From positions 124,001-188,000 of IMG/VR virus record IMGVR_UViG_3300009108_000751: a stretch of DNA of 64,000 bases. The stretch is one strand, 5' to 3'. The stretch is from a virus. The notes beneath the pieces are model-generated. The model saw nothing but the letters and a program-made list of their open reading frames with translations, was not told the DNA's origin and did no database searches. This document shows positions 22,021 through 52,879 of this stretch, piece by piece (position 1 is the first letter of the stretch; every line of letters begins with the position of its first letter). The position numbers and the translations under genes were made by a program.

Positions 22021-23211
22021 GTGAAAGTTTGCATCAACCAGAGTATCCTAGGATCCGAACAGCACCTAGTAACTGATTTTAAGTCAGGTGCATCTTGGGT
22101 TAATGAGCCACCCGAAGATGCACTTACGGTGGGATTCAGTGACAGCGAAGAGCTTCAAGTAATATCACGCCTTTCAGGAATCTCAATACCCCGCCACCCC
22201 GACCCTAAGTTTGCAGGCCCTTTTAAGACATTTGGAATTAAAAATATACTCTGGTCGCAAGCTTTGCCTAGGAGTGTGTACAAGAAGTACTTTCAGAATA
22301 TCCAGGATGCTATCAGATTGAACGCGGACTCTGATCAATACGATTACTTTAAAGAGAGGGTTTCAAGGCAACAGAAGCTAATCTCGTCATTGCAGCCTGC
22401 CCACATCGATGAAAAGATCTTTGCTCGAAGGTACGGAGATCCTGCTACTGTTAATAAGTCGGTCTTGACTTCCTTCATGCCTATGAAGGGTGTGACTAAG
22501 AAAGTAGGCTACAATCTTACCGGCACCAACACAGGACGACTCACGATATCAGAAGGCCCCCAGATTCTTACGCTTAAGGCGGAGATGAGGGATATCTTGA
22601 CCTCTCGCTATGAAGGGGGAAAGATCATGCAGTTCGATTACGTAAGCCTGGAGCCTCGCGTTGCACTCATCCTCTCCGGCCAGGATCCTATCAAAGATAT
22701 CTACACTGACCTCTGCGACAAAGTTCTGGACAGCCAGCACGGTCGACAAACTGCAAAGTTGCTGACCATTGCCACGCTGTATGGCATGGGTGTTCGCCGG
22801 GTCAAAGAGTTGATCGGGGTGAGCAAGCACACAGCGCTGGATGTTCTCAAGAATCTGGAGATCTTCTTCGGGGTGGGTGAGGTAAAAGCTCACTTGGAGG
22901 AAGAAGCAAAGTCTGGTTTTATCAAGAATCACTTTGGTAGAAACATCCGAGTTCGCAATAATGCGTCACACGTGCTCTACAACAACTATATACAATCCTC
23001 AGCGATGGATGCAGCACTCGAAGGCTTTTATCAGATTGTGCAAGGTGTAGAGAAGGAAGGCCACAAGTGTGTTCCGCTCTTTCTTTTGCATGATGCGATT
23101 ATTTTTGACTGCCACCCTGAGTGCTTTGACAAGCTTGAGGATATAATGGCACCAGGGCAACAAATACCTGCTTTTAAATCGCGGCTCTACATGGGCGCGG
23201 AGGAACTATAA
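22021..23211 (+). CDS. polA: Family A DNA polymerase, polymerase domain only
   Basis: A 396-residue enzyme with the palm/fingers part of Pol I and no 3'-5' or 5'-3' exonuclease domain. Visible motifs: TNTGRLT (169-175), motif A FDYVSLEPR with Asp206 and Glu211, motif B RQTAKLLTIATLYGM (242-256), the QSSAMDAALEGF helix, and motif C LLHDA with His357-Asp358. Motif C is HDA instead of HDE, and motif A has YVSLEP for YSQIEL. Metal-binding aspartates are present, so it should be active. No ribosome site precedes GTG 22021. A separate 5' nuclease is encoded at 27004; no proofreading partner is seen in the window. Confidence 0.88.
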   Translation: MKVCINQSILGSEQHLVTDFKSGASWVNEPPEDALTVGFSDSEELQVISRLSGISIPRHPDPKFAGPFKTFGIKNILWSQALPRSVYKKYFQNIQDAIRLNADSDQYDYFKERVSRQQKLISSLQPAHIDEKIFARRYGDPATVNKSVLTSFMPMKGVTKKVGYNLTGTNTGRLTISEGPQILTLKAEMRDILTSRYEGGKIMQFDYVSLEPRVALILSGQDPIKDIYTDLCDKVLDSQHGRQTAKLLTIATLYGMGVRRVKELIGVSKHTALDVLKNLEIFFGVGEVKAHLEEEAKSGFIKNHFGRNIRVRNNASHVLYNNYIQSSAMDAALEGFYQIVQGVEKEGHKCVPLFLLHDAIIFDCHPECFDKLEDIMAPGQQIPAFKSRLYMGAEEL

Positions 23212-23813
23212 TGGATTTAGATATCGAAAAGATGCAAGCTGATTATGAGAAGTTTAAAGCTCTCACTGGAAAGACAGGCAAGCGGGCTAAACAGCTTAAT
23301 GCACTGATCGATAAGCTTGGAGAACGCCTTGTGATGGCTCCCTCTTCAGAGCGCAACGAGTATTTTAACTCTTTCCCTGGGGGTCTGCTAGATCATGCAC
23401 TTAAGATCCTGGAGGCTAGCTACAAGGTTGCTAAGGGATGTGGCATCGAGGTGTCCAACGAGTCTGTGATCTTGTGTTCTTTGTTTTGTCTGATTGGGAA
23501 GGTAGGGGATGATAATCAAGATCTTTATCTACCCCAAGACAACAAGTGGCGAAAGGACAACCTTGGTGAGAACTACAAGTTCAATGATAAACTTCGCCAC
23601 ATGCGAACCACACACCGAAGCCTCTACTTGCTTCAAAAGTTTGGTGTTGGGTTAAACTACGATGAGTGGATGGCTATTCTGCTTGCTGATGGTTTGACAG
23701 ACGACACGCGCCTTTACTCTATGAGAGAGCCCTCACTAGCGCTCGTAATTTCCTCGGCAAACAAGCTTGTTCAGGCACGTTCTCGAGAAGATAGTATTCC
23801 AGTTCCGTTTTAA
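23211..23813 (+). CDS. HD-hydrolase-like protein lacking the HD pair
   Basis: A 200-residue protein whose ATG overlaps the polA stop. A PGGLLDHALKILEAS segment (about residues 55-70) resembles the first His motif of YhaM-type HD hydrolases, but the place where the HD pair should follow reads LFCLIGKVGDD, so both metal ligands are missing. A later HMRTTHRSLYLL helix and an ALVISSANKLV helix fit the all-helical HD fold. It is probably a catalytically dead or altered relative acting with the polymerase. Confidence 0.5.
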   Translation: MDLDIEKMQADYEKFKALTGKTGKRAKQLNALIDKLGERLVMAPSSERNEYFNSFPGGLLDHALKILEASYKVAKGCGIEVSNESVILCSLFCLIGKVGDDNQDLYLPQDNKWRKDNLGENYKFNDKLRHMRTTHRSLYLLQKFGVGLNYDEWMAILLADGLTDDTRLYSMREPSLALVISSANKLVQARSREDSIPVPF

Positions 23814-23829
23814 GTCAATACTTATCTAC

Positions 23830-24495
23830 ATGGCTAAAGTAGTAAAGAGATTTAGACCGAAATACGTGAAGCGTCTGAGAGACCGCCCGTCAGGCATAGG
23901 ACAGACGGGTGCTAGCGCAACTTCAGATCGTCAAAATCCACCAGACATTCATCGTCTAGGTTGGGCCCCAAGGCCCTTTCCAAGATCGGGAATGACAGGC
24001 GAGCCTAATAGTTCGATTATGGGCAGAATGGGATCTGGCACACTCTCAGCATACACTGATACTGATCGAGAAGAGTTTGAAGATCAGTCTGGCATGCCTG
24101 GAAAAGGCGGGAACTATAAGAGTGATATGACAAGACAGTATATTAGCAAACTAAAGGCGCGCCCAGTAATTGGATTACCTGTAGGCCCTATCGGAGAATC
24201 AGAGCTTCGCGAAGTAATACGAGGAATGATAGCCGATCTCAACGAAGACCCCATGGGAAGAGAAGCTTTCAATTATGAGATGCTTAGAAGCCAAGAAGAA
24301 GACGACGAAGAAGAGGACGACGAAGATGATCTTGATGAGTTCTCTGGGGCAGGTGCAGTCGCGGGATTTACACTACCTTTAGGCGCTTCCAATCACCCGT
24401 CTACCCTGAAATCTCGAGGAGATTTTACTGCCAAAATGTACGGCGGAGAGCGTGTGAGAACTATTAAATTACAGCGAATGAAATTGACTGATTAA
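23830..24495 (+). CDS. Uncharacterised protein with basic N-terminus and acidic tract
   Basis: A 221-residue protein of unknown function. The open frame reaches back to 23767, but ATG 23830 after the upstream stop gives a typical basic N-terminus (VVKRFRPKYVKRLRDR). Residues about 150-180 hold an almost unbroken Glu/Asp run followed by a Gly/Ala-rich stretch. No ribosome site is visible; a CAATACTTAT motif at 23816-23825, like the late promoters, sits 4 bases before the ATG. Charge pattern suggests a nucleic-acid or virion-associated protein, but this is a guess. Confidence 0.55.
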   Translation: MAKVVKRFRPKYVKRLRDRPSGIGQTGASATSDRQNPPDIHRLGWAPRPFPRSGMTGEPNSSIMGRMGSGTLSAYTDTDREEFEDQSGMPGKGGNYKSDMTRQYISKLKARPVIGLPVGPIGESELREVIRGMIADLNEDPMGREAFNYEMLRSQEEDDEEEDDEDDLDEFSGAGAVAGFTLPLGASNHPSTLKSRGDFTAKMYGGERVRTIKLQRMKLTD

Positions 24496-24498
24496 TCA

Positions 24499-24527
24499 TT
24501 GAACATCCTTGCATGCTAGGTTAGAAT
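24499..24527 (+). promoter_or_regulatory. Sigma70-like promoter (gp32)
   Basis: TTGAACATC (24499-24507), 14 bases, TAGAAT (24522-24527), giving a 17-base spacer between TTGAAC and the -10 box. ATG 24560 follows with an AAGGAG site. Confidence 0.65.
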
Positions 24528-24559
24528 ACACCTGACCATCAAGCTACAAGGAGAAAAAG

Positions 24560-25366
24560 ATGGCTATTGATTTTGATGCGATTCGTCGCAAGGTTGCTCA
24601 ACTTTCTGGCAACGGACGTCGAGGCTCTGCCTTTTGGCGCCCAGAAGAGGGTGAGCACACCGTTCGGATTGTGCCCTTCACCGATAACGACGGGCAACCT
24701 TTTAAAGAGCGTTGGTTCTACTACAATGTAGGTGAGAACCGCGGCATTCTGGCACCGAAGCAGTTCGGCAAGCCCGATCCCATTCAGGAGCTGATCAACA
24801 AGCTTCGTGATGAAGGCTCGCCCGAGTCGGCTGAGCTCTGCAAGCGCCTCTATCCCAAGATGCGTGCATACGCTCCGGTTGTTGTCCGCGGCGAAGAAGA
24901 CAAGGGCACCCAGCTCTGGTCGTTCGGCAAGATGGTCTACCAGGACATCCTCAACATTATGCTTGACCCCGACTACGGTGATATCACGGATCCTCTAGAA
25001 GGTCGTGACATCAAGGTGACCCTGTCCAAGCAGCCTGGTCAAAACTGGGCCAAGACGTCAGTCATGCCTCGAGGTAAAGCAACTAAGCTTTCCGGTGACG
25101 ACGACAAGATTAAAACGTGGACTTCTACCATTCCTAACTTGGATGAGATCTATTCTCTTGAGTCGTATGAAGAGATTGAAAAGAAAGTCAATGACTGGCT
25201 TAACGGCTCTTCAGCGGCAGACGACGACGGCATGACCGGCGGGTCCTCCACCAAGACTACAACTACAAGTGCTCCCACTACTGAAAGCACTACCAAAACC
25301 ACCACTGAGTCGAAGTCATACACTTCACTCGATGACGCGTTCGCTGATCTACTCGGCGACGACTAG
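24560..25366 (+). CDS. gp32: Single-stranded DNA-binding protein, gp32-like
   Basis: A 268-residue protein that coats single-stranded DNA in replication and recombination. The core (FWRPEEGEHTVRIVPF, FKERWFYYNVGENRGILAPKQFG, DPIQELINKLRDEG) follows gp32. The C-terminus has a Thr/Ser-rich linker and the acidic tail LDDAFADLLGDD used to recruit partners. The zinc site of T4 gp32 (His and three Cys) is not present: only one Cys remains at the equivalent CKRLYPK segment. Strong AAGGAG site; UvsX follows 8 bases later. Confidence 0.87.
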   Translation: MAIDFDAIRRKVAQLSGNGRRGSAFWRPEEGEHTVRIVPFTDNDGQPFKERWFYYNVGENRGILAPKQFGKPDPIQELINKLRDEGSPESAELCKRLYPKMRAYAPVVVRGEEDKGTQLWSFGKMVYQDILNIMLDPDYGDITDPLEGRDIKVTLSKQPGQNWAKTSVMPRGKATKLSGDDDKIKTWTSTIPNLDEIYSLESYEEIEKKVNDWLNGSSAADDDGMTGGSSTKTTTTSAPTTESTTKTTTESKSYTSLDDAFADLLGDD

Positions 25367-25374
25367 GAGAAGAG

Positions 25375-26562
25375 ATGGCAAAGAAAGCCGCAGGAAGAAA
25401 GTCAAAAGGTTCTGACGACTTCACAGCGGATCTCATCAAGTCACTGAATAAAGATCACGGAAGCAGAATTGCTTACAATCTCAGTGTTGATGAGTCGCCA
25501 ACTCACGTGAAGGCTTGGGTGTCGACAGGCATCCGACAGCTGGATTACATTGTTGCTAATCGTAAGGGAGGCGGACTTCCTTGTGGCAGGATCGTAGAAA
25601 TCTTCGGCCCTCCTTCGATCGGTAAATCACATATCGCCCTACAAATCGCCCGCAATACGCAGGCGATGGGCGGTGTTGTGGTTTATATCGACACAGAAAA
25701 CGGCACCTCAGTGGAAAACCTGGGGCTGCTAGGTATCGATGTTTCCAAGCGTTTCGTCTTCATTGAAACTGCTTGCACTGAAGAAGTATTTGCTGTTGCT
25801 GAGTCCACAATCGCCAAGGCAAGGGGCTTAAATAAAAAAGTTCCTATCACCATTGTGTGGGATTCAGTCGCTGCATCTTCTCCCAAAGCGGAGCTTGTAG
25901 GTGACTATGATAAGGACTCCATAGGTCTGCAAGCTCGCGCCATCTCGAAGGGTATGCGCAAGATCACACAGGTGATTGGAAACACGAACACGCTCTTTAT
26001 CGCTTTGAACCAGACGAGAACGAAGATCGGTGTAATGTATGGAGATCCTACAACTACACCGGGTGGTATGGCACTTCCTTTTCACTCGTCTGTACGAATT
26101 AAGCTCGGTGCCGGCTCCCCTATCAAAAACAAAGACGGCGATGTTGTCGGTATTAACGTGTCAGCAAAATCTATCAAGAACAAGGTAGCGCCACCGTTCA
26201 GGACTTGCCAGTTTGAGATCCACTTCGGCGTGGGTGTCAAAGAGCATGAGCAAGTCACCGATTTACTGCGATCTTCTGAAGATGTAACTGTAGATGGAAA
26301 GACATACTCAGTTGAAGGTTCAGGTGCCTGGAAGACGCTGGCGGTCTCTGATGAAAAGACCGGAGAAGTCTTAGTAGAGAAGAAGTTCACCAAGAGCGGC
26401 ATGGAAGATCTACTTAAGAGCCCTGAATATAGCCCACATATTGAGTTGATGCTGGAACACATCTTGGTAAAGAAGTTTCAGGGCAATCCTGACTTTGATA
26501 CCGACTCTTACGAGGAAGTTCGAGCAGTTGCAATGGATTTGGCGGAGAATGATCTAAGTTGA
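25375..26562 (+). CDS. uvsX: RecA/UvsX recombinase
   Basis: A 395-residue strand-exchange ATPase. Walker A is GPPSIGKS (residues 78-85) and Walker B ends in ITIVWDSVAA. The NQTRTKIGVMYGDP, TTPGGMALPFHSS region is the L2/DNA-binding part and is closer to bacterial RecA than to T4 UvsX. It lies between gp32 and dUTPase, and its TGA overlaps the TTG start of dUTPase. Confidence 0.92.
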   Translation: MAKKAAGRKSKGSDDFTADLIKSLNKDHGSRIAYNLSVDESPTHVKAWVSTGIRQLDYIVANRKGGGLPCGRIVEIFGPPSIGKSHIALQIARNTQAMGGVVVYIDTENGTSVENLGLLGIDVSKRFVFIETACTEEVFAVAESTIAKARGLNKKVPITIVWDSVAASSPKAELVGDYDKDSIGLQARAISKGMRKITQVIGNTNTLFIALNQTRTKIGVMYGDPTTTPGGMALPFHSSVRIKLGAGSPIKNKDGDVVGINVSAKSIKNKVAPPFRTCQFEIHFGVGVKEHEQVTDLLRSSEDVTVDGKTYSVEGSGAWKTLAVSDEKTGEVLVEKKFTKSGMEDLLKSPEYSPHIELMLEHILVKKFQGNPDFDTDSYEEVRAVAMDLAENDLS

Positions 26563-27023
26563 GCCTATACATCAAAGTAAAAAAGACACATCCGGACGCA
26601 GTAATCCCGCGCCAAAAAGTTGGTGATGTGGGGTGGGACCTTACCGCAGTCGAAGATGGAACCATTCAGCCTGGAAAAGTTGCAGTAGCACCCACAGGCT
26701 TGATGTTAGCTGAGAATCCTTTTGCTAACGATATTCACAACCAGATCTTGCTTAAGATCGAGGGTCGAAGCGGCCTAGCTAGCAAGCACTGTGTTTTCCC
26801 AGTAGGAGGCATAATCGACCCCAGCTACCGCGGAGAGATGGGTGTGATGCTCTACAATGGTGGAGATACTCCTTACGAGTTCAAGAAGGGTGACAGAGTT
26901 GCTCAGATTGTCGTTTATGAGGTCCATGCAAAAACTATGAGCAATAAAACATGCTTCATGGAAGCAGACACTGTACGCACATCTGAGCGAGGTAGTAAAG
27001 GTTTTGGCTCCTCTGGAAGATAG
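26559..27023 (+). CDS. dut: dUTP diphosphatase (trimeric dUTPase)
   Basis: A 154-residue enzyme converting dUTP to dUMP, keeping uracil out of DNA and feeding ThyX. All five motifs are visible: GDVGWDLTA, EGRSGLA, GGIIDPSYRGEMGVMLYNGG, KGDRVAQIVV and RGSKGFGSSGR. TTG start overlapping the uvsX stop; C-terminal codons overlap the next gene. Confidence 0.93.
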   Translation: MSLYIKVKKTHPDAVIPRQKVGDVGWDLTAVEDGTIQPGKVAVAPTGLMLAENPFANDIHNQILLKIEGRSGLASKHCVFPVGGIIDPSYRGEMGVMLYNGGDTPYEFKKGDRVAQIVVYEVHAKTMSNKTCFMEADTVRTSERGSKGFGSSGR

Positions 27024-27960
27024 ACCTGTCCTCATCTTCGACGCGATGAACCTGTTTCTACGTGTCTATTCGGCAAACCCGTCGATTAGCAAGCACGGTC
27101 ATCACGTCGGAGGTGTGGTCGGTTTCTTAAAGTCGATGCGCAACATCATAGATCGCTTTAGCCCTAGGCAGATCTATGTTGTGTGGGAAGGCGGAGGTTC
27201 TTCTAGGAGAAGATCCATCTACCCGGAATATAAGAAGGGTAAAAAGCCAGCTCGAATGAACAAGTTTTATGAGCAGGACATTCCCGACACTCAGCAGAAT
27301 CGAAATAAGCAGATTGCTAGCTTAATTAGCATGATGAAAAAGATGCCCATCTGCCAGCTCTACGTCGGTGACTGTGAGGGCGACGACGTCATTGGTTATC
27401 TCTGCAAGTATAAATTACGTGATCTGCCCAAGGTGATAGTGTCCTCAGATCAGGATTATTACCAGCTCTTAAATGATAATACAAGAATCTTTCGCCTGGG
27501 GCGCAAAGAGATCGTAACTCGCGATCACATTCCTGATCTTTTAGGTGTGAGCGCTAATAACTACTGTGTTGCTAAAGCGGCAGTCGGTGACAGCTCCGAC
27601 AACATCGCCGGGATCAAAGGTGCCGGCTACAAGACAATGGCTAAAAGATTTTCTTTCCTTGCTGACGATGAAGAAGCTGACATACAAAAAATATTTGAGT
27701 ATGCTTCTGCACACGCAGAGGGAAAAATTAAAATCTACCGAGAGATAGCGGACAACTTTGACATCTTGGAACGTAACTGGCGCCTGACATATTTAGATTC
27801 GCGAAATTTAGCGGCGGGCCAAGTGAATCAAATCGAACAAATCGTAGATACATTTGAACCAAAGAGGAATAAGATCGGGATGATGAGAGATCTGATTGCT
27901 GAAGGCATCCAAAACTTTGACGTCGAATCGCTTTTCCTTAGCTTTACTTACCTAGATTAA
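27004..27960 (+). CDS. 5'-3' exonuclease / flap endonuclease (RNase H type)
   Basis: A 318-residue PIN-like/FEN nuclease that should remove RNA primers and flaps, like T4 RNase H. Features: FDAMNLFLRVY at the N-terminus, VVWEGGGSSRRRSIYPEYKKG, DCEGDDVIGYL, SSDQDYYQLL, and the helix-hairpin-helix segment GDSSDNIAGIKGAGYKT. These keep the acidic metal ligands. It starts at TTG 27004 with AAAGG upstream and overlaps dut by 20 bases. It supplies the nuclease missing from the family A polymerase at 22021. Confidence 0.9.
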   Translation: MAPLEDRPVLIFDAMNLFLRVYSANPSISKHGHHVGGVVGFLKSMRNIIDRFSPRQIYVVWEGGGSSRRRSIYPEYKKGKKPARMNKFYEQDIPDTQQNRNKQIASLISMMKKMPICQLYVGDCEGDDVIGYLCKYKLRDLPKVIVSSDQDYYQLLNDNTRIFRLGRKEIVTRDHIPDLLGVSANNYCVAKAAVGDSSDNIAGIKGAGYKTMAKRFSFLADDEEADIQKIFEYASAHAEGKIKIYREIADNFDILERNWRLTYLDSRNLAAGQVNQIEQIVDTFEPKRNKIGMMRDLIAEGIQNFDVESLFLSFTYLD

Positions 27961-27970: not shown

Positions 27971-29395
27971 GTGACACAAGAGTCCGGCATATCATTCGCG
28001 TCTTATGGAAAAGACTTCCAAGAAAAAATCGTTCAAGGACTCCTTACAGACAGCATGTGGGCAGAACAAATGGCTGAGGTTATCGACACTCAGTTCTTTG
28101 ACCTGAAGTATCTCAGGTTCCTGGCAGATCGATACTTCACTTACCACCAGAAATACAAGGATTTTCCAACTCTTCCGCTTCTTGTCTCTATCATTCGTGA
28201 CGACCTGAAGACGGGTAATGATACAATCCTCCGCGACCAGATCGTTGAGTATCTCCAGCGCATCCGCCACAATCCCAACATGGGAGATTTGGAATATGTC
28301 AAGGATAAAGCACTCGACTTCTGTCGCAAGCAAGCTTTCCGAGGCGCCCTGGAAGAAGCTGTTGATCTTATTCAGGTTGACAAGTTCGACTCGGTGATGG
28401 ATCTGATGAGAAACGCCCTGTCAGTTGGTACCACACCCTCCGTTGGCCACGATTTCTTTGAAGATATGGAAGCTCGCTTCGTTCGAGTTAGTCGATCACC
28501 CATTCCAACGGGCATTGACAAGATTGATGCAAAAGATATCCTCAACGGTGGTCTAGGCAAAGGCGAGATCGGTGTCATCACAGCACCTACAGGAGTTGGC
28601 AAGTCACACATGCTGGTAAATCTTGGATGCTCAGCTTTAAAAGCAGGATTTAACGTAATACACTATACCTTTGAGCTTACCGAGACAGGTACAGGCCTTC
28701 GTTACGATTCCAATCTTTGCCAGATCCCTAGCAACGAAGTTCAGGATCGCAAGGATGAAGTTATCGAATACTACAAGGAAAAAGGTGATCAGCTCGGAAA
28801 ACTGATGATCAAGGAGTATCCTACGGGAACTGCTACCGTACAAACCCTCAGAGCGCATATAGAAAAATTAAGCTTAAAAGGATTTATTCCGCAAGTGCTG
28901 ATTATCGATTACGCAGACATTATGAGATCATCCCGACAGTATGATTCAATGAGGCATGAGCTAAAGAAGGTGTATGAGGATCTCCGAAATTTAGCAATGG
29001 AAAAGAACATGCCCATCTGGACAGCGTCCCAATCTAATAGAGACTCAGCTAACTCTGATATCGTGGGATTGGAAAACATGTCAGAATCTTACGGAAAAGC
29101 ACAAGTTGCCGATGTTGTGATCTCCATATCTCGGAAGCCCGCAGAGAAATCCGAGGGTTTCGGGCGCCTGTATATTGCTAAGAACCGAGCAGGTCGGGAC
29201 GGAATCGTGTTTCCTGTAAAACTCAATACAGCAATGAGCAGGTTCAGCATACTAGAAAATTCAGAAGAAATGTCCTTTATGGACGCAAAGAAAAAGAATG
29301 AAGGTGACCTGAAACATCTCTTGCAACAAAAGTGGAAACAAGTAAGCAAAGTTGAAGTAAAAGATAATAAGGTAAAGGAAGAAGGTAAGACGTAG
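27971..29395 (+). CDS. gp41: Replicative DNA helicase, DnaB/gp41-like
   Basis: A 474-residue hexameric helicase. N-terminal domain to about residue 165; RecA-like core with Walker A APTGVGKS (205-212), Walker B PQVLIIDYADI and the SQSNRDSANS sensor region. GTG start with AGAGG upstream, 10 bases after the nuclease gene. The C-terminus is Lys-rich. No primase is seen in the window. Confidence 0.9.
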   Translation: MTQESGISFASYGKDFQEKIVQGLLTDSMWAEQMAEVIDTQFFDLKYLRFLADRYFTYHQKYKDFPTLPLLVSIIRDDLKTGNDTILRDQIVEYLQRIRHNPNMGDLEYVKDKALDFCRKQAFRGALEEAVDLIQVDKFDSVMDLMRNALSVGTTPSVGHDFFEDMEARFVRVSRSPIPTGIDKIDAKDILNGGLGKGEIGVITAPTGVGKSHMLVNLGCSALKAGFNVIHYTFELTETGTGLRYDSNLCQIPSNEVQDRKDEVIEYYKEKGDQLGKLMIKEYPTGTATVQTLRAHIEKLSLKGFIPQVLIIDYADIMRSSRQYDSMRHELKKVYEDLRNLAMEKNMPIWTASQSNRDSANSDIVGLENMSESYGKAQVADVVISISRKPAEKSEGFGRLYIAKNRAGRDGIVFPVKLNTAMSRFSILENSEEMSFMDAKKKNEGDLKHLLQQKWKQVSKVEVKDNKVKEEGKT

Positions 29396-29398
29396 AAG

Positions 29399-31867
29399 AT
29401 GGCAACCTATGATGACGTTTTCTCGGAGAGTTTAGAATATTTTGATGGCGACGAGCTGGCAGCCTCAGTATTCGCCACCAAGTACGCATTGCAAGATACC
29501 GAAGGTAATTTCCTAGAATCAAACCCTGATCAGATGCACCGCAGGCTCGCACGTGAGTTCGCTCGCGTTGAGGCTAAGTATGATAATCCCATGACTGAAG
29601 AGGAGGTTTACAACCTTCTAAAGGGCTTTAAGTATGTAGTCCCACAAGGATCACCAATGTCAGGTATTGGCAACTCTCACCAGATCCAGTCTCTATCTAA
29701 CTGCTTTGTAGTCGATAACCCACAAGATTCGTACGGGGGCATTCTTAAGACTGATCAAGAGCAAGTTCAGATTATGAAACGACGCGGAGGCGTAGGGTTC
29801 GATATCTCTACCATCCGTCCGCAGGGGCTGAGAACATCTAATGCTGCTAAGACAACTGACGGCATCGGTGTTTTTATGGAGCGCTTTTCTAACTCCTGTC
29901 GTGAGGTGGCGCAAGGCGGTCGCAGAGGTGCACTCATGCTCACCATCTCAGTTCATCACCCTGATATTGAGACATTCATCAACATCAAGCGCGATCTGTC
30001 CAAAGTGACAGGGGCTAATATTTCAATTCGACTGACTGATGAGTTTATGCAAGCTGTCGAGAACGACGCTGATTACGAGTTGCGCTTCCCGGTAGAACCC
30101 GAAGAAGAAAGAGTTGTAACTCAGCAAGCTTCTGCATCTAATATTTGGGATCAGATCATCGAGTCAGCACACGGGTCAGCAGAGCCAGGTTTGCTCTTCT
30201 GGGATAATGTTCTCAATTATACACCTGCGCAGATCTACAAGGACCAGGGATTTCACACCATTAGCACCAATCCGTGCAGTGAGATCACGCTGTCAGCTTA
30301 CGATAGCTGCAGACTTCTTCTCCTCAACCTGACTTCTTTTGTTGAAAATCCCTTCCAGGATAGCGCTCGTTTCGATTACGAGCTTTTTAGCGAATGCACC
30401 CAGAAGGCACAAAGATTAATGGACGATCTTATTGATCTTGAGATTGAGTGCGTTGATCGAATTATTAAAAAGATCAAGAAAGATCCGGAGTCAAAGGATG
30501 CAAAGCGTGTTGAGCTTGAACTCTGGCAGAAGATCCGCAAGGCAGCCCTCGACGGCCGCCGAACCGGCCTCGGTGTGACAGGCTTGGGTGATACCCTCGC
30601 GATGCTCAATCTCAACTACGGTTCTCCCGATAGCATTCAAGAGACAGAGGACATCTACCGCACGCTTTCCATCGCTGCTTACAAGAGCTCATGTCAGCTT
30701 GCAGCTGAACGAGGTGCCTTCCCTGTCTACAGCTACGAGCAAGAGGAGGGGCACCCCTTTATGGAGCGCCTCTTTAAAGCCTACCCACAGTTACGACATT
30801 TACACCGAGAGCACGGAAGGCGTAACATTGCCTTAACCACCACTGCTCCGTGCGGAAGCGTTTCTACGTTAACGCAGACAACGTCAGGTATCGAACCTGC
30901 ATTCATGCTCAAGTACACGAGGCGCAAGAAGATCAATCCGAATGATCCTGATGCTCAAGTTGATTTCGTGGACGATCTCGGTGATAAGTGGCAGGAGTTT
31001 GATGTCTATCACCACAACTTCAAGAAGTGGATGGACGTCACTGGTAAAGCTGAGATCAATGATAGCCCATACGCAGGATCGACCGCCAACGAGATCGTAT
31101 GGGAGTCAGCAGTAGATATCCAGGCTGCAGCACAGCTCTGGGTGTGCCATGCGATCAGCAAGACGATCAATCTACCCGGGGATGTTTCTGTTGACGATGT
31201 TAAGAAAGTGTATTGGCGTGGGTGGAAGAAGGGCCTGAAGGGAGTCACAGTATATCGCGACGGTTCCCGCTCAGGTGTATTAGTATCTGATGATGCTGCA
31301 GCAAAAAACCAAGACGGTTTTTATGAGACTCCTGCCCCAAAACGCCCAGAAACTTTGACATGTGAGATTCATCACGCCTCTATCAGGGGTGAGAAATGGA
31401 CCATTGTCATGGGATTGATGGACGGAAAGCCATACGAGATCTTTGGGGGAATGGCTAACAAGATTGAGATTCCTCGATACTATAAGAAGGGAACACTCAC
31501 TAAGCGCCCACGAAAGACAAAGAACTCTATTTATGATCTTCGTTTCGGTCATGAAGGAGATGAGTTTTGCATCAAGGACGTGGTTGAAGTATTTGATAAT
31601 CCAAACTACTCAGCATTCACTCGAACTATCTCACTGGCTTTGCGCCACGGAGCTCCTGTTTCCTTTATGGTCGAGCAGCTCCAGAAAGACAAAGAAGCAG
31701 ATATGTTCTCTTTTTCTCGAGTCATCGCTCGAGTTCTCAAGAACTACATCAAAGATGGAACTAAAGCCTCTGAAAAGACGTGCGAAAATTGTGGAGCTGA
31801 AGGGACATTAATCTATCAAGAAGGTTGTGTTACTTGCCTAAGCTGCGGCACTGGCAAGTGCGGTTAA
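29399..31867 (+). CDS. nrdJ: Class II (adenosylcobalamin-dependent) ribonucleotide reductase
   Basis: An 822-residue single-subunit reductase making deoxynucleotides without oxygen dependence. Residues 95-105 (QSLSNCF, Cys102), NPCSEI (291-296), and TTAPCGSVSTLTQTTSGIEP further on are the active-site segments. The C-terminus carries CENCG and CVTCLSCGTGKC, the Cys-rich tail typical of NrdJ enzymes that bind metal and relay electrons. No small subunit or nrdD-type activase is nearby, supporting class II. The host must supply B12. Confidence 0.9.
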   Translation: MATYDDVFSESLEYFDGDELAASVFATKYALQDTEGNFLESNPDQMHRRLAREFARVEAKYDNPMTEEEVYNLLKGFKYVVPQGSPMSGIGNSHQIQSLSNCFVVDNPQDSYGGILKTDQEQVQIMKRRGGVGFDISTIRPQGLRTSNAAKTTDGIGVFMERFSNSCREVAQGGRRGALMLTISVHHPDIETFINIKRDLSKVTGANISIRLTDEFMQAVENDADYELRFPVEPEEERVVTQQASASNIWDQIIESAHGSAEPGLLFWDNVLNYTPAQIYKDQGFHTISTNPCSEITLSAYDSCRLLLLNLTSFVENPFQDSARFDYELFSECTQKAQRLMDDLIDLEIECVDRIIKKIKKDPESKDAKRVELELWQKIRKAALDGRRTGLGVTGLGDTLAMLNLNYGSPDSIQETEDIYRTLSIAAYKSSCQLAAERGAFPVYSYEQEEGHPFMERLFKAYPQLRHLHREHGRRNIALTTTAPCGSVSTLTQTTSGIEPAFMLKYTRRKKINPNDPDAQVDFVDDLGDKWQEFDVYHHNFKKWMDVTGKAEINDSPYAGSTANEIVWESAVDIQAAAQLWVCHAISKTINLPGDVSVDDVKKVYWRGWKKGLKGVTVYRDGSRSGVLVSDDAAAKNQDGFYETPAPKRPETLTCEIHHASIRGEKWTIVMGLMDGKPYEIFGGMANKIEIPRYYKKGTLTKRPRKTKNSIYDLRFGHEGDEFCIKDVVEVFDNPNYSAFTRTISLALRHGAPVSFMVEQLQKDKEADMFSFSRVIARVLKNYIKDGTKASEKTCENCGAEGTLIYQEGCVTCLSCGTGKCG

Positions 31868-31887: not shown

Positions 31888-32490
31888 TTGAAGAAGCAGG
31901 TTAAAGTTGATGGACGAATTAGCGAAGTAAAGCTAATGAACAATCCTATTGTGGTTCGGGTTAATAAATTTAATGAAGATGGTGCTAAGAAGTTCACGCA
32001 GGATATGGCGTCAGCTCATAACTCTGGTCAAAGCATCATTCCTATCGTGATCGACTCCTACGGAGGTCAAGTTTACTCTTTGATGTCAATGATCTCAGAC
32101 ATCAAGTGTGCAGACTTACCTGTTGCTACCATAGTGGAAGGTAAGGCTATGTCTTGCGGAGCTGTTCTTTTCACGTTTGGAGAAGACGGTCATCGATACA
32201 TGGCACCTGATGCTACGGTGATGATTCACGACGTGAGCAGCGGCGGTTTTGGCAAAGTGGAGGAACTTAAAGCTGATGCAGCCGAAGCCGATCGATTAGA
32301 CCAAAAGATCTTCTCGATGATGTCACAAAACTGCGGTAAGAAAGACGACTACTTCAAGAAGATCGTCCATAAGAAAGGTCACGCCGACTGGTTCCTGGAT
32401 GCTGATGAGTGCAAGAAACATAACATCTGCAATCACATTCGTGTTCCGTCATTTACGGTTAGCATCGACGTGAATATGGAACTTGACTAG
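31888..32490 (+). CDS. clpP: ClpP-like serine protease
   Basis: A 200-residue protease of the ClpP fold. IDSYGG (55-60) forms the oxyanion strand, the nucleophile is Ser89 in GKAMSCGA, His114 is in VMIHDVSSGG and Asp167 in HADWFL, a complete triad. The length fits free ClpP, with no ATPase partner nearby. It starts at TTG 31888 after AAAGAGG. Roles could be host or phage protein turnover, or hijacking host Clp ATPases. A prohead protease role is less likely, being far from the capsid genes. Confidence 0.85.
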   Translation: MKKQVKVDGRISEVKLMNNPIVVRVNKFNEDGAKKFTQDMASAHNSGQSIIPIVIDSYGGQVYSLMSMISDIKCADLPVATIVEGKAMSCGAVLFTFGEDGHRYMAPDATVMIHDVSSGGFGKVEELKADAAEADRLDQKIFSMMSQNCGKKDDYFKKIVHKKGHADWFLDADECKKHNICNHIRVPSFTVSIDVNMELD

Positions 32491-42888: not shown

Positions 42889-43215
42889 ATGCGCTTCGAG
42901 CTTATCACTGAAGAAAACCTTGACGACTATACCGACAACGGTGAGTTTCCTAACTTTGTTCATTATCCCATGAAGAAACTAAGAGAAGATTTCTATGATG
43001 TTAAGAAGAAAGATACACTCATCTTCTGGGGCGCCGAAGGTCACAATATAAAATCGAAGAATGTCACGTTAAAATCCATCGGAAAGTTTGACGGGACGCT
43101 AGAAGAAGCATTAGATGTCTTGAAATCTTCTTTGCCGCCAAGCCAGGTGATGCTTGTTCATACTGAGCACGGTGAGATATACAGAGCAATTGTTCCTCGA
43201 AGGAGAATGAGATGA
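42889..43215 (+). CDS. Uncharacterised protein
   Basis: A 108-residue protein, charged and probably soluble, beginning RFELITEENLDDYTDNGEFPNFVHY, ending in a basic RRRMR. No family recognised. It overlaps the epimerase gene by 4 bases. Confidence 0.6.
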   Translation: MRFELITEENLDDYTDNGEFPNFVHYPMKKLREDFYDVKKKDTLIFWGAEGHNIKSKNVTLKSIGKFDGTLEEALDVLKSSLPPSQVMLVHTEHGEIYRAIVPRRRMR

Positions 43216-44180
43216 AATTTGTTATTACAGGTGAAGCCGGTTTTATCGGGCGCAACCTCCCTCTAGCATTTGAGAAGCACGGTCACACGTTTGTTTCACT
43301 ACTTAATCATTCAGCTTTTGTTTGTCTCCCTACAGGTGAGCCCTGTGTGCATCGCAACTCAGAAGATCGCTGGTTCTCTGTCCTGGAAGAGAATGATATC
43401 GACCTGGTGATCCACAATGCAGCCTTGGTAGGCACGGATGTGGTGGCACTAAACCCAAACGAAGCATCCCTAACTAACGTCTCAGGCACACACATCATCT
43501 GTCGTGCAGCAGAACGAGCTGGAGCTGCCGTCTCCTATATGGGCACCACAGTGATCTACAATACTGCGCTTTACCAGCGCATTAAGATCCATGAACGATC
43601 TGAGCATCTACCTAAGACGCTTTACGGCTCTCAAAAGCTTGCGTCAGAATACATCGTTCAGAGTGCATGCACCCGCTGGAATGTTGTTCGCCCGCTCTTC
43701 GCTTACGGCGGCGTGGGTGACATGAACTCTCTGATTGCCAAAACCCTCTACGCTTCTCGTGATGGTCGTGATAGCATCAATATGTTCCTGGATCCGATGA
43801 AGGTGAAAGATTACATGCACGTTACCGACTACTGCGATGCCGTTGCCCTATCCTGCCACCTGCAGATGTGGGGTAGCGACTACAATGTCGCAGCTGAGAA
43901 CCCTTATAACACTCGTGAGATCGTGGAGATGATGTCCGAGGTCTCGGGCCGCGACCTAGAAGAGGTGATCAAATGGCACCCGCACACCGACTACCTCGGA
44001 AACCATCGCCTTCTTTCCAAGAAGTTTAGAGATGCCACGGGATGGGAGCCGAAATACACACTCCTCCAAGGCATTCAGGAATCCTGGGAGTCAATCTTGG
44101 AAGATAGAAGCGGCTACAATCCCCTCGTGTACCTGGATGAAGCAGATAAGCGCGGATTAGATCTCACGCAGTTCTACTAG
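43212..44180 (+). CDS. NAD-dependent epimerase/dehydratase (sugar nucleotide)
   Basis: A 322-residue extended SDR enzyme. FVITGEAGFIGRN gives the GxxGxxG NAD-binding loop; HNAALVGTDVV, SYMGTTVIY and the catalytic LYGSQK (Tyr-x-x-x-Lys) follow. It resembles enzymes that modify nucleotide sugars for surface polysaccharides. With the second epimerase at 54446 it suggests the phage alters host glycans or its own. Substrate cannot be read. Confidence 0.82.
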   Translation: MKFVITGEAGFIGRNLPLAFEKHGHTFVSLLNHSAFVCLPTGEPCVHRNSEDRWFSVLEENDIDLVIHNAALVGTDVVALNPNEASLTNVSGTHIICRAAERAGAAVSYMGTTVIYNTALYQRIKIHERSEHLPKTLYGSQKLASEYIVQSACTRWNVVRPLFAYGGVGDMNSLIAKTLYASRDGRDSINMFLDPMKVKDYMHVTDYCDAVALSCHLQMWGSDYNVAAENPYNTREIVEMMSEVSGRDLEEVIKWHPHTDYLGNHRLLSKKFRDATGWEPKYTLLQGIQESWESILEDRSGYNPLVYLDEADKRGLDLTQFY

Positions 44181-44233: not shown

Positions 44234-45859
44234 TTGTCACTTCAAGACGCCTTTCCATTTGACGAACCACGTCAGGCACAGATCGATGCCATCGCTTTCA
44301 CTATTAATACTTTCTTAAAAAGTGATAAACGCTTCTGTATCATCGAGGCAGGAACCGGCGTAGGTAAGTCTGCTATCGGTGTCACCATCGGACGAGTTCT
44401 TAACTCTAAGTACGAGCAGTTTACCGACCAGGATCCTGTCAAAGGTACATACTTTGTCACCACGCAGAAGATCTTGCAAGACCAGTACGTCAAGGATTTC
44501 GGTGGCTACGGTAAGAAGATGAAATCTATCGCTTCCTCTGCTAACTACCCATGTAGATATCATAAGGGCAATAGCTGCGGTGAGTCAAAGCAACTCCTCA
44601 GAACAGCCGAGAGATCTAGTAAGTTCTTCAAAGTTTGCACGATGAACTGCAACTACAATCAGGCGAAGGACGAGTTTATTAACTCGCCCGAGTCAGTGGT
44701 CAACTTTCCCTACCTGCTCACCGAGGCAACCTACAGCGGCAAGCTTAAACCGCGTCACTTGCTGGTGCTAGACGAGGCACACAATATCGAGTCACAGCTT
44801 AGTCGCTTCATCGAGGTGTCAGTTTCGGAGTGGTTCTCTAAAAAGACACTCAAAGCAGGTTGGACGAAGGCAGAAACTCAGTTTCAAGCACATAAGTGGA
44901 TCAGCGAAGTTTACTACACCAAAGTTTGCGACCGACTCAAGCACATCGAAAAGATGATGAGCAAATACGGCGGGCTAAAAGACAAGCTAGATGAGATGAT
45001 GGGTTTCGCCAAGCAGTTGGACATGTTGCGCTCTCATGTTGATCGGCTCCGCATGTTTCTCAAGCACTACGACAAGGAAAACTGGATCGTGGAGTTCGAG
45101 AACTACAAAGGTCGAGGCAAACGCCGCATTACCTTCAAACCTGTGGATGTGTCCAAATTTGGGCAGGATTACCTTTTTAGGCTAGGGACCAAGGTTTTAA
45201 TGATGTCGGCGACGATCCTTGACAGAGAAGCATTCTGTCAATCTCTGGGTATCTCTGCGGGTGATGTGGAGTTTCTTTCTCTGCCTTCACCCTTTCCGAC
45301 GGAAAATCGACCTATCATCGAACTACCGGTGGGGCCAATGAATGCCAAAGAGATCGACAACACCCTGCCCAAGATGGCGAAGGTCGTGGAGGAGTTATTG
45401 GAAGCACATCCCGACGAGAAAGGGATTGTCCACTGCCACACGTTCAAGATTGCCAACTACCTAAAAGACAACATCAATTCCAAGCGCCTGCTCATTCACG
45501 AGACATCAAATCGGGAGGAGATGCTGCAAAAGCACATGCAGTCAAACAAACCAACGGTTCTGCTTAGTCCGTCAATGTCAGAGGGTGTGGATCTACGTGA
45601 TGACTGCTCACGCTTCCAGATTATCTGCAAGATCCCGTATCCCTACTTGGGTGACAAGGTGGTGAAGAAGCGCATGAACAAGTGGCCCGGCTGGTATCCC
45701 CTCCAAACCGCGAAATCCATCGTCCAGGCAGTAGGGCGCAGTATCCGGTCTGTAGACGATCACGCAGTGACTTACATTTTAGATGGCCAGTGGCGTAGCT
45801 TTTACGGAAGGAACAAGAAGTTCTTTCCTGATGATTTTCAAAAATGCATTAAGAGGTGA
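44234..45859 (+). CDS. Rad3/DinG-type DNA helicase with Fe-S cysteines
   Basis: A 541-residue SF2 helicase. Walker A AGTGVGKS (39-46), a four-Cys group Cys107, Cys115, Cys135 and Cys139 that fits a 4Fe-4S site, DEAH box at about 178, the ATILDREAF motif and a C-terminal QAVGRSIRSVDDH motif VI. This is the XPD/DinG architecture, used for unwinding 5' flaps or R-loops and for repair. It starts at TTG 44234 with a GGAG site and a clear promoter. Confidence 0.88.
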   Translation: MSLQDAFPFDEPRQAQIDAIAFTINTFLKSDKRFCIIEAGTGVGKSAIGVTIGRVLNSKYEQFTDQDPVKGTYFVTTQKILQDQYVKDFGGYGKKMKSIASSANYPCRYHKGNSCGESKQLLRTAERSSKFFKVCTMNCNYNQAKDEFINSPESVVNFPYLLTEATYSGKLKPRHLLVLDEAHNIESQLSRFIEVSVSEWFSKKTLKAGWTKAETQFQAHKWISEVYYTKVCDRLKHIEKMMSKYGGLKDKLDEMMGFAKQLDMLRSHVDRLRMFLKHYDKENWIVEFENYKGRGKRRITFKPVDVSKFGQDYLFRLGTKVLMMSATILDREAFCQSLGISAGDVEFLSLPSPFPTENRPIIELPVGPMNAKEIDNTLPKMAKVVEELLEAHPDEKGIVHCHTFKIANYLKDNINSKRLLIHETSNREEMLQKHMQSNKPTVLLSPSMSEGVDLRDDCSRFQIICKIPYPYLGDKVVKKRMNKWPGWYPLQTAKSIVQAVGRSIRSVDDHAVTYILDGQWRSFYGRNKKFFPDDFQKCIKR

Positions 45860-48514: not shown

Positions 48515-48535
48515 GGTCCGGGGTAGTATTAATAC

Positions 48536-48772: not shown

Positions 48773-48956
48773 AGATCTCACTTATCTAAGAGAAGGAGAT
48801 CTAGTCTGTATTCCCATGCAGGAACCGCCCGTCGTAGGATTCGTTGCCAGAACTCCACCCCCAACTGCCACTTTTGTCCGGATCCTTGTTGACGGGAAGC
48901 TTGACTGGTGGCACATAACCGACTGCGATATTATAAGTTGTGTAAATCCAGAATAG
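48765..48956 (+). CDS. Small SH3-like protein
   Basis: A 63-residue protein: LREGDLVCIPMQEPPVVGFVART, then FVRILVDGKLDWWHITDCDI, a strand pattern like a minimal SH3-type fold. It is followed by a promoter and DNA polymerase III. Confidence 0.55.
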   Translation: MDRDLTYLREGDLVCIPMQEPPVVGFVARTPPPTATFVRILVDGKLDWWHITDCDIISCVNPE

Positions 48957-48968
48957 GTGTTTTATAAT
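48940..48968 (+). promoter_or_regulatory. Sigma70-like promoter with GTGTAAATC box (dnaE)
   Basis: GTGTAAATC (48940-48948), 14 bases, TATAAT (48963-48968). GTG 48989 follows with CCGGAG. Confidence 0.72.
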
Positions 48969-48988
48969 CTTAGCACCGGAGATAAAAA

Positions 48989-51900
48989 GTGTCATTTGAC
49001 GATTTCAAGAAACCTAATCGATTCGTAGGCATGCACGGCCACGATGGTTATTCCACTTACGATGGCCTAGGATACCCAGCAGATCACCTGGACTTTGTCT
49101 TGGAGAACGGCATGGATGCCCTCTCTATTACCAACCACGGTAACTGCAACTCCCTCCCTTTCCTCTGGAAGCACGGCGAGAAACTACGCAAGCAAGGTCG
49201 AAATGTTAGAACCATCTCAGGATGTGAGTTCTATTTTGTTCCATCGCTTAAGGAGTGGGAGAAGCAGTATCAAAACCATCGAGATCGAGTAAAGGCGGAA
49301 CGGGATGCTAAAAAGCAAGAAGCCCTATCTAAGATCGATGTCAATAAAGATGCCGAGGATGATGAGGCTCAGGGGGGCCACGTTATTGAGGATGAGGAAG
49401 CCAGCAAGACTTACGACCCCGACGCCTTGGATTGGAAGCGCCGGTATCACTTAGTTGTCACAGCGCGGAACTTGACCGGCCTGCAAAACCTCTTCAGGTT
49501 AATCAAGCGCTCGTACAAGGAAGGGTTTTATCGGTTTCCACGCATTGACTTTGAAATGTTGAAGGAGCACGGGGAAGGGCTCCAGGTGTCGTCTGCCTGT
49601 CTGGCAGGCATCGCCACTGGAACCGTCTTTAAGGGGCAGGCTCACAAGAAAGATTTTGAGGAGATCATGCGGGATCTCGGTAATCTCACAGATCGCTTTC
49701 ATGATGCGCTAAGTCCGGATCGTTTCTTCTGGGAGATCCAGTTCAACTCCTTGGACGCACAACACACCACAAATCACTACCTGCTAGAGATGGCCAAACG
49801 CCACAACCTTCCTCTCATCGCCACCGCAGACAGTCACTATCCACGACCGGACCTGTGGGAAGCCCGGGAGCTCTACAAGAAGCTCGGCTGGATGCGTGAT
49901 AAGCCCACCCCTCTCCCCACCTTCGACGAGCTCAAGTGTGAGCTTTATCCCAAGAACGCGGAACAGATGTGGGAGGAGTACGGAAGGCATTACACTCAGC
50001 ACGACTTCTACAATGGCACCGAAGACATGGTCCGGCAAGCAATCGAGCGTACACATGACCTGACCTGGAACGAGTTCGAGGACGTCTGGATCGACAGCAA
50101 AGCCAAGCTGCCTAACTACGCCAATCCCCAGCGTTCACACGCGTGCTATCCCGAGCCGCCTGAGGACACCCCGTTCCAGCAGCTAGCTAAGCTGGTCAAG
50201 GCGGCGATGATCCGCGAGGGCCTAGGTGACAAGCCCGAGTACGTCGCGCGTGTCAAGGAGGAGATGGACGACATCAAGTTCCTGGGCTTCGAGAACTACT
50301 TCCTGACCATGTATGACGTGTTCCATCTCGCAGAGAAGAAGACGCTGTTCGGGCCGGCCCGTGGTTCGGGTGGTGGCTCGCTGGTCAACTACCTGCTGGG
50401 CATCACGCAGATCGACCCCCTCCCGTTTGGCCTGCTGTGGTCGCGCTTCCTGGGCCGCCACCGCACGTCCTGGCCTGACATCGACTCTGACGCGGGAGAC
50501 CGCGACGCGCTGATCGATGCAGCTCGAGTCCTCTTTGGAGAGGATGCGGTCATTCCCGTGTCCAACTTCAACACGCTGAAACTCAAGTCCATCGTTAAGG
50601 ATGTGGCCAAGTTCTACCAGATCGACTTCGCCGAAGTGAACCGGATCACTGGTCCCCTCCAGGGTGAGGTGGAACCCTTCGCCCGAGATGCCAACACCGA
50701 GAAGTCCGTCTTTGTGCTCAAGCACGACGACTGTATGAAGTACTCCGATAACTACCGGACCTTTATGGAGAAGTATCCGCACGTGGAGAAGCACGTGAGC
50801 ACGTTGTTTATGGAACAACGAGCCATCGGCCGACATGCTGGGGGCGTCCTCATCGCTGATGAGAATGAGTTAGCCGAGACCATGCCCCTGATCGGTGTGC
50901 GTGGTGAGCTCCAGACCCCCTGGACCGAGGGTATGAACTTCCGGAACCTGGAAGACAACGGTTTCATCAAGTTCGACTTCCTCGGCCTAACCCTAATGAA
51001 GGATGTGGAGAACTGCATCAAGCGCGTCCTGCGGACGCCTGACAATCCTCAGCCTAGCTTTGCGCAGATTAAAGAGTATTTTGACGAGCATCTTAACTGC
51101 CGATATGTCAAGCAGGATGACCCTAAGGTGTGGGAGCACTCCTATCACCATCAGAATTTCGCCCCGGGCCTCTTTCAGTTTACGGCTCAGGGAGCTCGCA
51201 ACTTCTGTCAGCAGGCTAAACCCGATAACATTGAGGAACTAGCGGCCATTACTGCTATCTATCGCCCGGGCCCACTCAAGGCTAATGTCCACATCAAGTA
51301 CGTGGAAGCCAAGAACGACCGGGACAACATTGTCTACGACCACCCCGTGATCGAGCGCGTCCTCGGCCCCACCTGCGGTTTCATCACCTTTCAGGAGCAG
51401 TTCATGACCCTGGCAGTCGAGCTCGCAGGGTTTACTCCCGGTGAGTCTGACAAGATGCGTAAGACGCTGGTGAAGAAGTCCTTAGACACCATCGGTAAGA
51501 AGGGTTCCGAACGTGACCAGCTGCGTAAGCAATTCGTGGAAGGTGCTCAACGCCTCCATGACCTAGATCCCAAGATCACTCACGCGCTTTTCGATAAGAT
51601 CGAGTTCTTCTCCCTTTATGGTTTCAATAAGTCGCACGCCGTGGCTTACGCCATCGATAGCTACTACGCCGCCTGGCTCTACACCTACCATCCCAAGGAG
51701 TGGATCGCTACTGTGCTCCAGTCAGAGAACAACTCCCCTAACGGTCTGGCTAAGACCATCCGGGAGGTCAAGGTCCTGGGTTACAAGTTTGCACCATCGG
51801 ATATCAACTACTCCGGTGAGGAGTGGGATTATAATCCTGAGCGAAAAGCCTTTGTACCTCCCCTGTCTTCTATTAAAGGTGTTGGTGGTAAAGCGATGGA

Positions 51901-52879
51901 GGAGATCATCGAGCATCGTCCTTTCCGCAATCTACGCGAGCTCTTCTTTAATGAGGAGGGTAAGTGGCGTCACTCCAAGGTAAATAAGACCTGCTTCGGT
52001 GCGCTCTGTCAGATTGAGGCTTTCACCTCGCTGCAGGAGTTCCAAGACGGTGACCTTGACAACCATCGCCAGCTCTACCACTTGATCGTTGATAACTACG
52101 AGCAGATCCGAAAGTCGGATGAAGGTAAGAAGAAGTGGTTGGATAAGCTAGAAGCCATCGGTGACAAGAACCGCGAGGAGGTCGATAAGATCATCTCCGT
52201 CTACACCAAGACCAAGATGCCTGAGATGGAGGAAGCCGCTCGATCTCTCGTCCTTGATGCTAATGTGATGGACTGGACTTACATCGATCACTTAGTAGAT
52301 TCCCTCAAGACTATCGAGCACCCTAAACCTCGACGACAGCTCCAGATCGATCGCTGCTTCGAACGGATTGCAAAGAACGGCGATCGTCGTGAAAAGATCC
52401 TTGAGCGCATCGATGCTTTCTTCGATCTAGACGAGGCAATGGGTTCTGTTGCGCACATTGAAGACTGGTCGCGTGATGAGAAGATTCGTCTCTACCAGGA
52501 GATCACGTCTGCTATCAATAATGCGTTGGTCTTTCCTGCCGAGGTGATGAAGCGAATCACCAAGACTGATATGCCCTCTGTCTGTGAGATCCCTGGCGGG
52601 GAGAAGGCTGTTGCTTGGGGTTGCGCCGCCGAGATCCAGAAGAAGACCACCAAGAAGGGTAAAGAGTTCTATCGCCTTCGAATGATCGATGACCAGAACA
52701 GATCTTGCTGGCTTCGAGTATGGGGTAAGTTCTTCGAGTGGGGTGAGGAGCGCGGACAAAAGCTCTACTACGAACCACCCGATTTCTCCTACTGGTTGAT
52801 GGAGGTGGATGTAGATCCTAACTGGGGCGCTTCCACCGCAGCCTTTAAGATGCGCAGGATCCCCCTAGCCGATGATTAA
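48989..52879 (+). CDS. dnaE: DNA polymerase III alpha subunit (family C)
   Basis: A 1296-residue replicative polymerase of bacterial type, close to full-length DnaE (about 1160). The N-terminal PHP domain begins GMHGHDGYSTYDGLG. The catalytic Asp pair is in PDIDSD (Asp497, Asp499) and the third Asp in KFDFLG (Asp663). GPARGSGGGSLVNYLLGI is the nucleotide-binding loop; the C-terminus has an OB-like part with RLRMIDDQNRSCWLRVWG. Insertions at 85-135 are Lys/Asp-rich. G+C rises visibly in about 50.1-51.5 kb, with bacterial-looking codon use. Its 3' end overlaps the next gene. Confidence 0.93.
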   Translation: MSFDDFKKPNRFVGMHGHDGYSTYDGLGYPADHLDFVLENGMDALSITNHGNCNSLPFLWKHGEKLRKQGRNVRTISGCEFYFVPSLKEWEKQYQNHRDRVKAERDAKKQEALSKIDVNKDAEDDEAQGGHVIEDEEASKTYDPDALDWKRRYHLVVTARNLTGLQNLFRLIKRSYKEGFYRFPRIDFEMLKEHGEGLQVSSACLAGIATGTVFKGQAHKKDFEEIMRDLGNLTDRFHDALSPDRFFWEIQFNSLDAQHTTNHYLLEMAKRHNLPLIATADSHYPRPDLWEARELYKKLGWMRDKPTPLPTFDELKCELYPKNAEQMWEEYGRHYTQHDFYNGTEDMVRQAIERTHDLTWNEFEDVWIDSKAKLPNYANPQRSHACYPEPPEDTPFQQLAKLVKAAMIREGLGDKPEYVARVKEEMDDIKFLGFENYFLTMYDVFHLAEKKTLFGPARGSGGGSLVNYLLGITQIDPLPFGLLWSRFLGRHRTSWPDIDSDAGDRDALIDAARVLFGEDAVIPVSNFNTLKLKSIVKDVAKFYQIDFAEVNRITGPLQGEVEPFARDANTEKSVFVLKHDDCMKYSDNYRTFMEKYPHVEKHVSTLFMEQRAIGRHAGGVLIADENELAETMPLIGVRGELQTPWTEGMNFRNLEDNGFIKFDFLGLTLMKDVENCIKRVLRTPDNPQPSFAQIKEYFDEHLNCRYVKQDDPKVWEHSYHHQNFAPGLFQFTAQGARNFCQQAKPDNIEELAAITAIYRPGPLKANVHIKYVEAKNDRDNIVYDHPVIERVLGPTCGFITFQEQFMTLAVELAGFTPGESDKMRKTLVKKSLDTIGKKGSERDQLRKQFVEGAQRLHDLDPKITHALFDKIEFFSLYGFNKSHAVAYAIDSYYAAWLYTYHPKEWIATVLQSENNSPNGLAKTIREVKVLGYKFAPSDINYSGEEWDYNPERKAFVPPLSSIKGVGGKAMEEIIEHRPFRNLRELFFNEEGKWRHSKVNKTCFGALCQIEAFTSLQEFQDGDLDNHRQLYHLIVDNYEQIRKSDEGKKKWLDKLEAIGDKNREEVDKIISVYTKTKMPEMEEAARSLVLDANVMDWTYIDHLVDSLKTIEHPKPRRQLQIDRCFERIAKNGDRREKILERIDAFFDLDEAMGSVAHIEDWSRDEKIRLYQEITSAINNALVFPAEVMKRITKTDMPSVCEIPGGEKAVAWGCAAEIQKKTTKKGKEFYRLRMIDDQNRSCWLRVWGKFFEWGEERGQKLYYEPPDFSYWLMEVDVDPNWGASTAAFKMRRIPLADD

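Follow-up and report, generated by a model that had tools for sequence, protein, structure and literature searches.

Which enzyme copies the genome of a T4-like phage that encodes two unrelated DNA polymerases and no recognizable gp43, the family B polymerase of T4? This question is raised by the DNA analysed here (the window), i.e. the 64,000 bases at positions 124001-188000 of the 235,681-base virus record IMGVR_UViG_3300009108_000751, in which a small relative of DNA polymerase I (family A; here called mini-PolA) is found together with a full-length DnaE, the family C polymerase alpha subunit. The initial annotation of the window had left the question open. Comparative evidence now favours DnaE in the role of replicase, with small PolA an accessory enzyme that is kept in the same gene block beside DnaE, beside a family B polymerase (PolB) with clamp loader, or beside a long PolA. 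We put the probability at about 0.65 that DnaE copies the genome, in which case mini-PolA and a separately encoded FEN/5'-3' exonuclease would do accessory work of the DNA polymerase I (Pol I) type.

The polymerase inventory itself is as initially annotated, i.e. families A and C without family B: across the whole record the Pfam profiles PF00476 (family A) and PF07733 (family C) match once each and PF00136 (family B) does not match at all, in a search that detected both positive controls, T4 and RM378. A gp43 homologue elsewhere in the genome had been named as an observation that would make both enzymes accessory; none was found with PF00136 over the length of the record, and the 33 related virus records searched, among them those of 164, 176, 185 and 322 kb, likewise gave no match. 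The record is classed as a linear virus contig and is possibly incomplete, and negative results for it hold within the sensitivity of the searches and this possible incompleteness. A gp43 gene lying beyond the ends of such a linear fragment would leave both enzymes in accessory roles, but with the related records equally free of PF00136 matches and with a T4-type clamp and clamp loader undetected as well, we regard this as the least probable of all explanations considered. That the phage is T4-like is borne out by its terminase, portal, prohead protease, major head protein, UvsX, gp41-type helicase, gp32-type single-strand DNA-binding protein (SSB) and gp61-type primase. The likeness to T4 thus extends over T4-type head and packaging genes as well as gp32-, gp41-, gp61-, UvsX- and gp46-type replication genes (the gp61-type primase and an SbcC/gp46-type protein are encoded outside the window in the same record), whereas gp43, gp44/62 and gp45 are undetected and DnaE and mini-PolA are present instead.

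DnaE has the domains and active-site residues of a family C polymerase. Its PHP, DNA_pol3_alpha, DNA_pol3_finger and HHH_6 domains all score above their Pfam cut-offs, it matches phrog_405 with an E-value of 7e-215, and its catalytic Asp triad is intact (PDID and FDFLG motifs). All nine metal ligands of the PHP domain are present as well, using the nine-position criterion of PMC3919608. Triad and ligands are kept across the DnaE clade (the relative L035 is without the aligned N-terminal stretch), and in E. coli DnaE most of the nine ligands are lost. Because the PHP site is intact and no DnaQ-type exonuclease was found in the 235.7-kb record (no match to PF00929), the PHP metal site probably provides DnaE with proofreading. 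In domain order and active site the protein resembles the DnaE replicases of other phages (phrog_405; Streptomyces phages and Moorella phage MTATph1), with an identity of 28-29% to those of the named phages. MTATph1, in which DnaE is present and PolA gives no match, represents the simpler known arrangement of DnaE alone.

In several relatives (L042, L047, L034, L037, L044, L029, L041 and L048), DnaE is interrupted by apparent split inteins at catalytic motifs, i.e. after GPGRG, at PDID or near residues 849-892, with a free-standing open reading frame of 250-336 codons between the halves. In L044 a single DnaE gene is broken in this way three times; the window DnaE itself is uninterrupted. Since breaks at catalytic motifs would need trans-splicing to give a functional enzyme, these split inteins support the idea of a working DnaE.

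Mini-PolA, which starts with a GTG codon, matches Pfam DNA_pol_A over residues 163-376 (55.7 bits at a cut-off of 34.3, E-value 5e-15) and phrog_17 (E-value 9e-26). Its residues D206, E211, R242, K246, Y254, Q325 and D358 correspond to D705, E710, R754, K758, Y766, Q849 and D882 of E. coli Pol I, and its AlphaFold2 model (pLDDT 91) has Pol I large fragments as top Foldseek matches in the PDB (E-values about 3e-13). The protein consists of fingers and palm plus a reduced N-terminal half, where only about 160 residues precede the Pfam match and thus leave no room for an exonuclease and a full thumb; no exonuclease domain was found in it with Pfam or PHROG. With the Klenow part of bacterial DNA polymerase I it shares the family A fold, the catalytic residues and a FEN partner, which is encoded in the same block. 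It differs from the full-length bacterial enzyme by having no 3'-5' exonuclease, a much reduced N-terminal half and a 5' nuclease that is not fused but encoded as a separate gene. Judged from these sequence features, mini-PolA looks like an active polymerase without exonuclease. RM378 does not serve as an earlier example of a split family A enzyme, as its polymerase matches family B and PF00476 gives no match.

Among 96 non-redundant mini-PolA sequences, the equivalents of D705, K758, Y766, Q849 and D882 are unvarying (96/96), at an identity between groups of 10-28%. The subtype found in the window retains the equivalents of E710, R754 and H881, i.e. canonical steric-gate and O-helix residues, and the proteins here called Mel-type, together with that of Flavobacterium phage immuto, carry E710H (at the steric gate), R754Y and H881Y substitutions. 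Mel-type proteins go undetected by Pfam and match E. coli Pol I weakly in profile comparison (probability 1.7%). As sequence comparison alone would be insecure here, their assignment to Pol I relies on a bridging profile and the predicted fold (AlphaFold2 model with pLDDT 90, Pol I large fragments as best matches). The His and Tyr substitutions, along with the RNA polymerase idea raised by Yutin et al. for a different family, divPolA2 (PMC11348598), could point to a mini-PolA repurposed as something other than a DNA polymerase, e.g. a primase or RNA polymerase-like enzyme. Yet E710 and R754 are both retained in the window protein, the two catalytic Asp residues never vary, Foldseek gives DNA polymerase I as best match, and the phage already has a primase of the gp61 type, so that such a repurposing appears highly improbable.

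Small PolA proteins of this kind are already known. The divPolA1 family was described from 14 phages of 155-190 kb, including immuto, and is characterized by a truncated thumb, an inactivated exonuclease, retained catalytic residues in the palm, conserved replication genes downstream and, beside it, a regular polymerase that may belong to family A, B or C (Yutin et al. 2024, PMC11348598). The window mini-PolA is a further member: a profile hidden Markov model of mini-PolA built with immuto left out finds immuto gp001 with an E-value of 1e-13 (the two proteins being only about 14% identical), the predicted fold is of the same class, D206, K246, Y254, Q325 and D358 are kept, the exonuclease is lost, SSB, UvsX, FEN and DnaB follow downstream, and DnaE is present in the genome. 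With immuto divPolA1 it has in common that it is a small, exonuclease-free PolA with its palm residues and the same gene order; it is unlike it in keeping E710, R754 and H881. The pairing of polymerases is thus less unusual than the initial annotation had implied, because phages that combine a small PolA with a regular polymerase from any of families A, B and C had already been described (PMC11348598).

Mini-PolA and DnaE are inherited together. In all 18 DnaE-clade records that reach far enough upstream, mini-PolA is located 9-31 kb upstream of DnaE on the same strand; the other 15 have at most 30.1 kb of upstream sequence and no mini-PolA, and none of the DnaE-clade records provides a counterexample. 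For the four of these 15 with the longest upstream stretches (22-30 kb), a true absence of mini-PolA was considered and rejected, as these contigs end inside the SSB-UvsX-FEN part before the position expected for mini-PolA. Mini-PolA heads a block with the order mini-PolA, SSB, UvsX, FEN, DnaB that is common to the DnaE clade and recurs in 109 further viral loci; the exceptions are loci cut short by the end of their contig and two in which the UvsX or FEN assignment is unusual. One scan gave at least 109 Mel-type stretches, in addition to the DnaE-linked groups, i.e. mini-PolA occurs on more than 100 viral contigs, in records of up to 322 and 484 kb.

The replicase found with this block varies. 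Immuto has the same block order and a 777-residue PolA as second polymerase. Microcystis phage Mel-JY01, in which mini-PolA is annotated as 'hypothetical', has the same block and also PolB, the clamp-loader genes gp44 and gp62 and a clamp-like gene. The 484-kb LR756508 (L140, L147, L148) again has the block, with an interrupted PolB, gp44, a clamp and a short C-family gene; the latter encodes 574 residues without PHP and is probably no working replicase alone, and we therefore rejected LR756508 as a three-polymerase phage. Because a T4-type replicase set is present in Mel-JY01 and LR756508, the simplest reading is that mini-PolA is accessory there and, by extension, in the window phage as well. 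Small PolA thus appears to be the constant, accessory component, and the replicase the part that can be exchanged. The same groups come out in the DnaB tree and in that of mini-PolA, without these trees fixing the deep order or the direction of replicase exchange.

If DnaE is the genome-copying polymerase, proofreading via its PHP site, the fork would probably be served by the gp61-type primase and DnaB helicase of the phage. Mini-PolA and the block FEN could then act as a two-gene Pol I, i.e. as its polymerase and 5'-nuclease halves, with mini-PolA filling the gaps left after removal of RNA primers in Okazaki fragment maturation and perhaps also extending recombination intermediates made by its operon partners UvsX and SSB. 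As to processivity, no gp45/DnaN sliding clamp was matched in the 235.7-kb record and no T4-type clamp loader (gp44/62) was detected there, with the only AAA matches being FtsH- or ClpA-like; a T4 gp44 match at record position 210290 was rejected as a clamp loader because the protein is FtsH-like. The clamp profile PF02916 was detected in no control, and divergent clamps or loaders may escape it as well as the single-sequence searches used. With neither a clamp nor a loader of the phage detected, it is probable that DnaE relies on the beta clamp and the loader of the host.

Several observations weigh against this division of labour. According to Yutin et al. (PMC11348598), the role of the 'regular' polymerase is made less obvious by the context in which it is encoded. 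Neither in the aligned region nor by a motif scan was a canonical beta-clamp motif recognized in DnaE, and phmmer with T4 gp30 and E. coli LigA found no ligase in the record. Moreover, it is mini-PolA rather than DnaE that is located in the core replication block of SSB, UvsX, FEN and DnaB, with DnaE about 26 kb off amid nucleotide-metabolism genes. Several other phages are replicated by PolA alone, and one could thus assume that mini-PolA is the replicase here, as PolA is in phages of the T7 or SPO1 type, with DnaE as an enzyme for repair, translesion synthesis or a late accessory task. We consider this unlikely for a polymerase that has no proofreading activity of its own, a reduced N-terminal half and strongly divergent sequences, that persists beside PolB, clamp and clamp loader of the T4 type in Mel-JY01 and LR756508, and that is accompanied in the genome by a full-length DnaE with an intact PHP site.

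T4-like phages depend on recombination-dependent replication late in infection, and mini-PolA adjoins UvsX and the gp32-type SSB in essentially every locus. Both enzymes might therefore copy DNA at different stages, DnaE at origin-dependent forks and mini-PolA in recombination-dependent synthesis from UvsX-made D-loops. FEN and DnaB in the same block fit Okazaki processing equally well, however, and poor processivity would be expected of a polymerase that has a reduced thumb and no exonuclease, which makes such a two-stage scheme rather doubtful to us. A replicative DnaE assisted by mini-PolA and FEN is the reading we prefer.

At the larger scale of phage evolution, these data may hint at a large, mostly uncultivated T4-like branch with a constant 'split Pol I' module (mini-PolA, SSB, UvsX, FEN and DnaB) onto which different replicases, i.e. 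DnaE, PolB with clamp loader or long PolA, have been swapped; those that took DnaE could have dropped their own clamp and loader in favour of those of the host, resulting in hybrid T4/bacterial replisomes. We propose this scenario tentatively, as one possibility. What is new here is the breadth of divPolA1, its occurrence in larger genomes, the regular gene order, the co-inheritance with DnaE, the subtypes defined by E710, R754 and H881, the invisibility of Mel-type proteins to Pfam and the undetected clamp and loader. The family, described from 14 members, extends much further, and Pfam misses many of its members. Two unrelated polymerases without gp43, an apparent oddity, can thus be turned into a testable rule, i.e. 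the small polymerase and its operon are constant and the replicase is variable. Such phages would represent a natural experiment on interchangeable replisome parts, on a phage replicase plugging into a host clamp and on the role of an exonuclease-free PolA beside UvsX and FEN.

Table 1. The two polymerases, the replication block and neighbouring genes (positions within the window).
Feature	Position	Strand	Support and remarks
Mini-PolA, divPolA1 family, 396 aa	22021..23211	+	PF00476; phrog_17; AlphaFold2 and Foldseek; invariant catalytic residues in 96/96 relatives
HD-type metal-dependent phosphohydrolase-like protein	23211..23813	+	phrog_28876, E 4e-6; directly after mini-PolA in most DnaE-clade members
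Conserved block protein, 242 aa	23767..24495	+	Position kept in several relatives; no Pfam or PHROG family match
gp32-type SSB	24560..25366	+	PF08804, E 1e-12; phrog_1192, E 1e-26
UvsX/RecA recombinase	25375..26562	+	PF00154, E 4e-57; phrog_97
dUTPase	26559..27023	+	PF00692, E 1e-22; in some members only
FEN/5'-3' exonuclease (Pol I 5' nuclease part as own gene)	27004..27960	+	PF02739, E 2e-26; phrog_107
DnaB/gp41-type replicative helicase	27971..29395	+	phrog_19, E 4e-77; T4 gp41 by phmmer, E 4e-37
Ribonucleotide reductase large subunit NrdA	29399..31867	+	phrog_84, E 1e-108
UvsW-like DNA helicase	44234..45859	+	phrog_2488, E 2e-117
DnaE, family C polymerase alpha subunit, intact PHP, 1296 aa (predicted replicase)	48989..52879	+	PF07733, PF17657, PF02811, PF14579; phrog_405

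Some further observations concern genes of the block and their surroundings. A split resembling that of DnaE is seen in UvsX of L138:14684-17358 and L260:17275-19832, with a 336-codon open reading frame between the halves in L138, and NrdA in L139:12728-16705 is a single open reading frame of 1325 codons, i.e. about 500 residues longer than in other relatives, which suggests an in-frame intein. A second FEN/5'-3' exonuclease, nearer to RM378 p012 than the block FEN is, is encoded outside the window (L109:11551-12369, i.e. record 199551-200369). DnaE is flanked by two nucleotide-sugar epimerase genes of one PHROG (window 43212-44180 and 54434-55375). Host-like proteostasis genes encode a ClpP-like protease, a ClpA-like ATPase, GroEL and an FtsH-like protein (window 31888-32490; L109:8562-11168; L109:13938-15533; L110:2290-4125). 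Finally, two adjacent and unusually large tail sheath genes are located at window 4960-8091 (1043 residues) and 8128-11232 (1034 residues), and a tail tube gene is also present in the record.

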